Assembly: GCA_963556255.1 (NCBI GenBank)
Contig: OY744609.1
Coordinates: 24,427,634-24,491,633 of the forward strand
DNA: 64,000 bases
Source: Allolobophora icterica
Taxonomy: Eukaryota > Annelida > Clitellata > Crassiclitellata > Lumbricidae
Direction of reading: 5' to 3'
Shown here: piece by piece, positions 38,301 to 62,476 of the stretch
How positions within the stretch are numbered: the stretch's first letter is position 1
How the letters are laid out: every line of letters starts with the position of its first letter
Translations under genes and position numbers: made by a program
Notes under the pieces: generated by a model
Databases searched by the model: none
What the model was told of the DNA's origin: nothing
What the model saw: only the letters and a program-made list of their open reading frames with translations

Positions 38301-41300
38301 ATTACAGTTAATAAAAGGATGGTTTTATTGATGATGCATTGACTTTCTAATTAGTTGTTTTGAATCTGATCAGAAACGGATGTCATTGATTTGGTTCAGT
38401 TGACACGATCAACTGGAACTCGACTGGTGTTTGATCTGAACCTTCAGCTTCGATTTGGTCCACAGTGGGATCCTTCGAATGCCATTGAGCTCCTGAAATT
38501 CTGCTCTGAAATGAAGTTCTGTGAAAGCATCGACTGGGAGCTGGGCAATGGTGTGTAAGCTCTTAATCTAATAGGTTTTGCTGAAATGACTTATATTTTG
38601 AAGCCAGTTTTGTTATTCTGTTTTTCACATACACAAACAGATGTAATTAACATGCAGAAATATTTGCATATGCAAATTATGCATATCACATTATACGAGA
38701 AAGGCGCTACACCGATTTCCTGTTGCCGAGCAAAATAATTTCCTTAATTTTACTGGCACGTGACTAAGTTATCGGCACTGCTTTGGCATATACAAGGGAG
38801 CTCTGTGTTCCAGTCTCAAGTACATAGGCGCCGACTTTTAGTAAAAGGTACTGGGGCAAGAATTCCATTCCCAAGATCCCGTGATCGGATGTGATCCCAT
38901 CGCCTATCATGCCCTGTCTTCCCCCTCTCCGAATTCCCCCTTTCCTCAAGCCCTTTCAACTGGGAAGAGACTAATTGTAATGCTATGCAACAATCATGAT
39001 AAAGACAAGCACATAGCAACCGGCGGCGGTGGCACAGTCGCTTGTGCGGTTCATCTAAGCTTGAAAGTTTCACAACAAACTTATCCATCGATCGTAATGA
39101 CAATAGTAAGTCATTATATAATTAGTAACCTTTATGGCTGTAACAATAACTAATTATGCTTTGAAAGATTGTTAACAACCTGTGGCATAACAACCTAGCA
39201 GAGGCCCTTGGACATTCTAAGCTTGGGGGCCCTTACCCATTAAAAAGTTAAAGTACTGAGATAGCTATTTAAAACTGCAATTAGTTAAGTAAAAAAAGGA
39301 TTGAACGTTTTCATCAATGATCCATACATAGTTCAAGTCACATTAATAGTTCAAGACAAAACAAGAATACAAGAAAAAATTGGTCAATTTGGCCTGTCGC
39401 TCATAGACTAGTTACATGCTACATGCATAGCTATAGTGTACACTGTACACTAACACTGCAGATATAAGATTTACATGTACTTAATGAATGAACAATTATG
39501 AACGGAGTACTTCATCATGCACGTGCAGTAGGCCCTACAATAGTCAATAGGTTAGGTTACCCTACTGAATAGTTCAAGTGAGATTAATAATTGAAGTTAA
39601 ATTGTCTTGAATTATAAAACAAAAATTAAATGCTTCACACAGTGAAGCAGATAGGCCCCTAACTTATGTACTACTTAAGACGCAAACCAAACAACTGCTA
39701 TTCTAAATTTTGAAGTTCCTTACCATCAGCTGAGTCTTAGTTTCTCTGGTTCAGGAGAGCTTTAGCCGGCAATTAGACATTTCTTTCGTTTGTTTAAAAG
39801 TAAACGAATCACTGTATTCTGAACAAGAGGGACTAGTCCGGTCGTTCTCTTCCTCCAACCCTCCATTCTCTCTCTTCCTCCAACCCTCCATTTTCTCTCC
39901 TCCTCCAACCCCTCCAATCCTCCATTCTCTCTCTTCCTCCAACCCTCCGTTCTCTCTCTTCCTCCAACCCTCCATTCTCTCTCTTCCTCCAACCCTCCAT
40001 TCTCTCTCTTCCTCCAACCCTCCGTTCTCTCTCTTCCTCCAACCCTCCATTCTCTCTCTTCCTCCAACCCTCCATTCTCTCTCTTCCTCCAACCCTCCGT
40101 TCTCTCTCTTCCTCCAACCCTCCATTCTCTCTCTTCTTCCAACCCTCCATTCTCTCTCTTCCTCCAACCCTCCATTCTCTCTCTTCCTCCAACCCTCCAT
40201 TCTCTCTCTTCCTCCAACCCTCCGTTCTCTCTCTTCCTCCAACCCTCCATTCTCTCTCTTCTTCCAACCCTCCATTCTCTCTCTTCCTCCAACCCTCCAT
40301 TCGCTCTCTTCCTCCAACCCTCCGTTCGCTCTCTTCCTCCAACCCTCCATTCTCTCTCTTCCTCCAACCCTCCATTCTCTCTCTTCCTCCAACCCTCCGT
40401 TCTCTCTCTTCCTCCAACCCTCCATTCTCTCTCTTCCTCCAACCCTCCATTCTCTCTCCTCCTCCAACCCTCCGTTCTCTCTCTTCCTCCAACCCTCCAT
40501 TCTCTCTCTTCTTCCAACCCTCCATTCTCTCTCTTCCTCCAACCCTCCGTTCTCTCTCTTCCTCCAACCCTCCATTCTCTCTCTTCCTCCAACCCTCCAT
40601 TCTCTCTCCTCCTACAACCCTCCGTTCTCTCTCTTCCTCCAACCCTCCATTCTCTCTCTTCCTCCAACCCTCCATTCTCTCTCTTCCTCCAACCCTCCGA
40701 TCGTTCTCTTCCTCCAACCCTCCGTTCTCTCTCTTCCTCCAACCCTCCGTACTCTCTCATCCTCCAACCCTCCATTCTCTCTCTTCCTCCAACCCTCCAT
40801 TCTCTCTCTTCCTCCAACCCTCCATTCTCTCTCTTCCTCCAACCCTCCATTCTCTCTCTTCCTCCAACCCTCCATTCTCTCTCTTCCTCCAACCCTCCAT
40901 TCTCTCTCTTCCTCCAACCCTCCATTCTCTCTCTTCCTCCAACCCTCCATTCTCTCTCTTCGTCCAACCCTCCATTCTCTCTCTTCCTCCAACCCTCCAT
41001 TCTCTCTCTTCCTCTAACCCTCCATTTTCTCCTCCTCCAACCCTCCATTCTCTCTCTTCCTCCAACCCTCCATTCTCTCTCTTCCTTAAACCCTCCGTTC
41101 TCTCTTCCTCCAACCCTCCATTCTCTCTCTTCCTCCAACCCTCCATTCTCTCTCTTCCTCCAACCCTCCATTCTCTCTCTTCCTCCAACCCCCCATTCTC
41201 TCTCTTCCTCCAACCCTCCATTCTCTCTCTTCCTCCAACCCTCCATTCTCTCTCTTCCTCCAACCCTCCGTTCTCTCTCTTCCTCCAACCCTCCATTCTC

Positions 41301-62400: not shown

Positions 62401-62476
62401 AATATACTCTCGCCCCCGATCCTTGGTGAGCACTGGGGCGAACGTCCCTGTTGCCCCTGTGGAGTCGGCGCCTATG
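59459..62476 (+). mobile_element. Minisatellite-bearing hAT-like transposon, copy C (3018 bp)
   Basis: Same 14-bp termini; perfect 8-bp duplication ATACCATA (59451-59458, 62477-62484). Nearly identical to inverted B: one difference noticed by eye is GGTTGCTAAC in B (about 58570) against GGTTGTTAAC in C. Both differ from A by small indels, for example ATGTCTTACTACTT in C for ATGTACTACTT in A. Confidence 0.97.
60475..61729 (+). repeat. 25-bp minisatellite array of copy C (~50 units)
   Basis: Mirror of the B array, C-rich strand on plus. Ends in the degenerate units CTTTCTCCCTACCTCC and CTTTCTCCAACCCTCTG, as in A and B. Confidence 0.97.

Follow-up and report, generated by a model that had tools for sequence, protein, structure and literature searches.

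The window, a stretch of 64,000 nucleotides on contig C8, contains three copies (A, B and C) of one transposable element. Each has 14-bp inverted ends (CATAGGCGCCGACT), a left arm of ~1022 bp, a minisatellite of 25-bp units and a right arm of 752 bp (Table 1). Beyond the shared 14 bp, the two ends of A, B and C differ from each other. The genome searched for relatives comprised 1.118 Gb in 328 contigs. Several other frames were found in the window. A 991-aa open frame with endonuclease and reverse transcriptase domains (50227-53199) belongs to a LINE-type element. Retroelement frames lie at 10496-12967 on the minus strand (endonuclease/reverse transcriptase) and at 18590-23105 on the plus strand (reverse transcriptase, RNase H and an integrase zinc-binding domain). 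A frame for a kelch-type protein (1630-3144) has close relatives at 86% and 82% identity.

Table 1. Features of copies A, B and C in the window, and array clusters elsewhere in the genome with no recognised arm
Feature	Position	Strand	Remarks
Copy A	38823..48965	+	target duplication CTCAAGTA on both sides; arms 98.5% identical to those of C (1027 + 691 aligned positions, BLAST)
A, left arm	38823..39845	+	98.5% identical to left arm of C
A, 25-bp minisatellite	39846..45985	+	6140 bp, 245.7 units; includes 1848-bp tandem block
A, right arm, initial 85 bp, upstream of nested insertion	45986..46070	+	100% identical to C over 85 bp
Second element nested in A, 2211 bp	46071..48281		perfect 15-bp inverted ends CAGTGGTTTTCAACC; splits right arm of A
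A, remainder of right arm and right end	48284..48965	+	98.6% identical to C
Copy B	55481..58923	-	target duplication GTAGGGTG; 3018 bp (55906-58923) without nested insertion
Second element nested in B, 417 bp	55487..55903		imperfect ends CAGGGCCGCCGACAG / CAGGCCCGCCGATAG; inserted 6 bp inside end of B
B, minisatellite	56658..57901	-	49.7 units
Copy C	59459..62476	+	target duplication ATACCATA
C, left arm, 1022 bp	59459..60480	+	from arm alignments
C, minisatellite	60481..61724	+	49.7 units
C, right arm, 752 bp	61725..62476	+	from arm alignments
Array clusters without recognised arm (16)	C1:15.54, C1:19.16, C2:70.04, C4:41.02, C4:78.96, C5:40.08, C7:39.78, C8:12.79		in Mb
Array clusters without recognised arm, continued	C9:39.92, C11:34.59, C12:19.75, C13:18.46, C13:25.02, C14:38.96, C20:17.16, C20:17.25		in Mb

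The preliminary description had presented the three copies as complete, with perfect 14-bp ends, three different target duplications, one minisatellite of ~246, 50 and 50 units at the same place, and an interior without a transposase. Most of this held. The duplications differ, the measured unit counts agree, and each array occupies the same place between homologous arms (Table 1). Outside the arrays, A, B and C have no stop-to-stop frame of at least 150 aa; all such frames run through the arrays. The perfect ends were confirmed in A and C, and in B when it is read from its inner end at 55906. At 55481, the outermost left end of B is reduced to CATAGG because of the insertion of a second element of 417 bp. 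The view of B as a plain complete copy was therefore rejected, as this nested element makes up most of its outer 425 bp. It has an 8-bp duplication of its own (TGCATAGG, at 55479-55486 and 55904-55911).

The 2211-bp element nested in A has no clean 8-bp duplication, and its site is a short tandem repeat. Because of this insertion, the size of A is not due to its array alone. No copy of the 15-bp end of this element was found near 32-34 kb of the window with up to 2 mismatches. The element shares ~930 bp with window positions 32559-33491 at 89% identity, (GGTCTTG)n-type repeats included.

With the nested insertion set aside, a single position among the 3018 of arms and array distinguishes B from C. 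The two lie 535 bp apart in opposite orientations. Since their target sites differ, the array was already inside the element when it moved. B and C, being one sequence, are not independent witnesses of array change, yet they show that the array travels with the arms. Between the left arms of A and C, the part aligned separately has 0.7% substitutions.

The same arrangement was found at many other loci. The left arm of C, used as a query, gave 45 matches among the best 40 of 1272 candidate regions. In all 27 of the non-window loci among the 30 fetched, the 25-bp array was next to or close to the left arm, with other sequence between arm and array at loci L067 and L078. The sequence searches covered the best 40 of 1272, 1555 and 398 candidate regions, so that locus counts are lower bounds. 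An arm or junction of the array-bearing subfamily was found at at least 67 clusters, B and C counted once; these are places of arms or junctions, and the array itself was read in part of them.

When up to 3 mismatches were allowed, 39 left and 40 right array junctions were found genome-wide. Twenty-three of them, A, B and C included, could be paired at distances of 170 to 6142 bp, or ~7 to 246 units. The distances, which may include insertions, were 170, 370, 595, 820, 823, 1050, 1111, 1225, 1244, 1246, 1246, 1311, 1341, 1345, 1345, 1697, 2119, 2256, 2826, 3414, 4633, 4768 and 6142 bp. The array of L025 has 131 units. That of L074 may reach ~300 units, as its arm-to-arm gap is ~7.5 kb, the first 58 units were read, and a 151-bp probe in the middle gave degenerate array.

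Nineteen array-bearing copies were read at both ends. The target duplication was perfect in 17 of them (A, B, C, L021, L025, L052, L053, L055, L057, L058, L059, L064, L066, L070, L072, L074 and L077) and matched at 7 of 8 positions in L065. L056 has both ends and no matching duplication. For L061, L063 and L073, the right end was not found within the stretches fetched. With the array at a fixed position at many loci, and with perfect duplications that are mostly different, the claim of a mobile family transposing with its own minisatellite was borne out: arms and array moved together.

These copies belong to a much larger family. The 14-mer end occurs 1604 and 1630 times on the two strands (3234 in all), compared with 1 and 1 for a reversed control, which excludes chance. 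The 100 listed places of the 14-mer on C1 (0-33.5 Mb) include 30 plus/minus pairs within 6 kb, all of which were read. Their target duplications were perfect in 21 pairs, matched at 7 of 8 positions in 6 and at 6 of 8 in 1, and were absent in 2. Sizes ranged from 273 to 5114 bp, with 23 of the 30 at 273-656 bp. The array was present in 2 pairs and absent in 28. Ten of the 40 ends without an exact partner were read, and two of these had a near-perfect partner and a matching duplication (L039, 8 of 8; L046, 7 of 8). L009, L017, L023 and L046, three of which are among the 30, share the flanking pair ATCGTCAT/ATCATCAT and do not count as independent insertions.

The array-bearing subfamily has its own subterminal sequences, a left 32-mer found 276 times and a right 33-mer found 270 times (up to 1 mismatch). 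Pairing the listed exact subfamily ends on C1-C6 gave 62 pairs of 541-15555 bp, two of which have one right end in common. These ends are not exclusive to array carriers: six pairs overlap the 30 above (L010, L012, L020, L021, L027 and L034), and the array is present in L021 alone.

Inverted ends, 3234 end copies, mostly short length and no coding capacity are the features of a MITE or other non-autonomous element; A, B and C exceed the usual MITE size. A foldback element was rejected, as the two ends have just 14 bp in common and there is one array, in the middle of the element. Helitrons or DINEs are marked by no target duplication and by 5′-TC and CTRR-3′ ends; this assignment was also rejected, as the family has 8-bp duplications and CATAGG...CCTATG ends.

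The array itself has changed in several ways. The array of A includes a tandemly repeated 1848-bp block of 74 units; the alignment covers 1948 bases at 97.8% identity, and uninterrupted matches extend for 625, 484 and 418 bp. This block duplication is real. The first and last array units are common to A and C, and the interior units differ. The preliminary description had read the family as insertion followed by expansion in A, which is shown only in part. The closest relative, at C8:8.0 Mb, has 3414 bp between its junctions (~137 units), a right arm of 95% identity and, over the 201 bp of array read, units mainly of the A/B/C type. This copy is not intact: after part of its left arm comes unrelated sequence, and a 46-bp read at the expected place did not show the left end. 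Other, more diverged copies have ~185-191 units, perhaps 300. The long array of the relative at C8:8.0 Mb and its unit type would fit a long array in the common ancestor and later shortening in B and C. Units lost on the way to B and C, or an array that was already long when A inserted, are explanations no less possible than growth once A was in place.

A comparison of L056 and L059 gave a second view of these changes. Their left arms are identical except for 1 of 1020 bases and their arrays are the same over the first 247 bp, yet the junction spacings are 820 bp in L056, the copy without a matching duplication, and 2119 bp in L059. Near-identical arms with unlike spacing indicate that the array changes faster than the arms. 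Units of A, B and C have the consensus CCATTCTC, and CCGTTCGC is the commonest among other arrays. Mean unit identity was 0.891 within arrays and 0.865 between them (20 arrays, some cut off), a modest homogenisation of the array within lineages.

In most copies read, the array lies between ...TAGTCCGTT on the left and CCTCCGTTGAACTAC on the right. TCCGTT is common to both boundaries, which makes it a possible origin site: the 25-bp repeat may have arisen or inserted there. The left boundary of C reads TCCGG instead. In the array-less sister L010, left-arm position ~312 is joined to right-arm position ~6; as the region between them is missing, L010 does not give a view of the state before the array.

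Arrays were also found away from the arms. A 501-bp query from the C array gave 264 matches. We built 33 clusters, with B and C as one, from 127 of the matches listed; the remaining listed ones fall in the same clusters. An arm or junction was present within 4 kb in 17 of the 33, and none was recognised in the other 16 (Table 1), where the test covered the best 40 regions per arm and junctions with up to 3 mismatches. For the armless cluster at C13:18.46 Mb, a right junction lies 5.8 kb away. At C7:26.83 Mb, one of the 17 with an arm, the array and the right arm are on opposite strands. The clusters at C1:15.54 and C1:19.16 Mb have no exact 14-mer end nearby, in a stretch where every exact end was listed. 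The preliminary description had taken arrays lying mostly without arms as the sign of an accidental association. With about half of the clusters in that state, the association is not accidental, but neither is it exclusive. The armless arrays could represent satellites on their own, element copies whose arms have decayed, or parts of another element family, and both directions, from element to satellite and from satellite into element, are possible.

Two armless clusters have further structure. In C1:15539193-15547611, array matches extend over 8.4 kb and matches of equal score recur, some 3575 bp apart, like a higher-order block repeat. In C4:41022535-41025474, the 25-bp array occurs on both strands side by side, and a hAT dimerisation domain match lies ~7 kb off (C4:41032494).

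Taken together, the copies very probably represent an array-bearing lineage of young age in an older non-autonomous cut-and-paste family with 14-bp ends and 8-bp duplications, most likely hAT, in which the array was acquired once, mobilised in trans and resized between moves. A, B and C would be members of this young lineage. One ancestral element would have gained the 25-bp repeat between its arms, perhaps at the TCCGTT microhomology, and later copies would have been mobilised in trans, with the array inside, by a transposase that is presumably of the hAT type. Between transpositions, the size of the array would shift through gain and loss of units and blocks, with modest homogenisation inside each lineage. 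Some arrays would by now have no recognised arms, and these would descend from the element rather than the reverse.

In the opposite direction, the 25-bp repeat would be a pre-existing dispersed satellite, a piece of which was picked up by the transposon, and the armless arrays would be its source. Such a capture is consistent with the 16 of 33 clusters that have no recognised arm within 4 kb, including the 8.4-kb spread at C1:15.54 Mb, and with the array-less sister L010. It is also consistent with the BLAST comparison of the arms with the window, which gave no match to the arrays. The armless arrays could, however, equally be explained by arm decay or recombination, and the same boundaries in most array-bearing copies read directly point to a single acquisition. 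We therefore regard capture as rather unlikely.

A wider reading is put forward tentatively, as a possibility somewhat short of even. The transposon family could be a continuing carrier of a satellite: the unit was taken up once, kilobase arrays were moved intact, they were remodelled and homogenised in each lineage, and armless arrays were left on a dozen contigs. If this is true, the birth of a satellite becomes datable copy by copy from the arms.

The family is probably hAT, and the assignment as hAT-like in the preliminary description is supported in part. Its short 14-bp inverted ends, its 8-bp target duplications and its CA...TG ends agree with hAT. The hAT duplication consensus is nTnnnnAn, and a bias to T at position 2 and A at position 7 is typical of hAT. 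In 42 duplications, these positions agreed in 31 of 84 cases compared with 20.2 by shuffling within duplications (p 0.003), and the comparison with flanking DNA gave p 0.084, so that the bias is weak. Domains of hAT transposases are abundant in the genome: PF14291 had 103 matches, and PF05699 had 150 among 150 scored of 5523 candidates. None of 103 PF14291 and 149 PF05699 matches fell inside the 62 paired elements from the listed exact ends on C1-C6. On C1 (0-33.5 Mb), an end lay no more than 10 kb from 1 of 7 matches to the two domains (expected by chance for each match: 0.056). As no transposase with these ends was found, hAT is what we infer.

P, Merlin and the Zisupton group are other superfamilies with 8-bp duplications, and membership in one of them would agree with the weak bias and with the lack of hAT domains inside the 62 pairs. 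Against it stand the plentiful hAT transposase domains in the genome and the ends of both nested elements, in A and in B, which we take to be hAT-like. We consider such a membership unlikely.

The array might aid the movement of the element rather than ride passively, for example by offering extra transposase-binding sites, a role of repeats discussed for Galileo and Tetris in an excerpt of PMC4079207. Copies whose left arms are 6-11% diverged from that of C still have arrays, and AACGG, a sequence resembling the Ac transposase binding motif, is part of the commoner unit type. However, the A/B/C lineage altered that position in most of its units (CCATTCTC) and still moved recently, and in the C1 sample short array-less copies dominate, with the array in just 2 of 30. 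An active role of the array is thus quite improbable. Least credible of all are assembly artefacts as the source of the length differences: long tandem arrays are hard to assemble, and the lengths here come from the assembly, but the A array has distinguishable variants, its tandem block is 97.8% identical and not perfect, and lengths vary over 23 copies.

Satellite DNA has been proposed to originate from transposons, and the arms described here can serve both to date the array beside them and to mark its position, over many loci and arrays of 7 to 246 units. As array-less siblings and armless arrays occur in one genome, it becomes possible to measure how fast arrays grow, how they contract and homogenise, and whether the element gave rise to the satellite or the reverse. 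The array is at a fixed internal position in the 27 non-window left-arm loci and the 23 copies with both junctions, as in a MITE that carries tandem repeats.

Elements of that kind are known from Xenopus, Drosophila, Porphyromonas and a clam, so that, as far as the excerpts cited below describe them, the process is not new. In the Xmix/Xstir MITE of Xenopus (Hikosaka and Kawahara 2004, as summarised in passages of PMC9659126, PMC12628747 and PMC8268682), internal tandem repeats also exist as arrays, as in the present family. According to these summaries, its repeats may come from the element's own interior; here, BLAST gave no match between the arms and the array. The miDNA4 MITE of Xenopus tropicalis (Scalvenzi and Pollet 2014, as summarised in passages of PMC9659126 and PMC12628747) is also a non-autonomous DNA transposon with a variable array of satellite units, and the summaries report proposals that it captured a repeat already present and that arrays without arms arose later. 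miDNA4 is assigned to Tc1/mariner, whereas the present family has 8-bp duplications and a 25-bp unit, with up to 246 units measured and ~300 inferred for L074. The foldback element Tetris of Drosophila virilis, in the excerpt of PMC4079207, is non-autonomous, with duplications of 8-10 bp, internal tandem repeats and longer satellite-like arrays elsewhere. An autonomous partner was found neither for Tetris, in that excerpt, nor here. Tetris has repeats of ~220 bp inside long terminal inverted repeats, in contrast to the 14-bp ends and single central array of the present family. BrickBuilt of Porphyromonas gingivalis, in an excerpt of PMC4596501, is a MITE with a 23-bp minisatellite of 1 to 22.8 units between leader and tail arms; it differs in being bacterial, in being found 19 times and in its short arrays. 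MITEs with internal tandem repeats in the clam Donax trunculus (mentioned in the same excerpt of PMC4596501) are also like the present family.

Among the open-access papers listed under hAT, titles and abstract openings contained no hAT element with a minisatellite, although one may have been published elsewhere. The advance over the known cases is one of scale and resolution: many loci, 7-246 units beside datable arms, recently moved copies 535 bp apart, and armless arrays.

One sibling length class, at ~2.8-2.86 kb, was considered as the autonomous partner and set aside; a 700-bp piece of one member, L092 (C3:20725150-20728006), is array-less L010-type sequence. The piece read also has a (TATGC)n/(TATAC)n stretch, and we take a frame in L092 to be a piece of a LINE.
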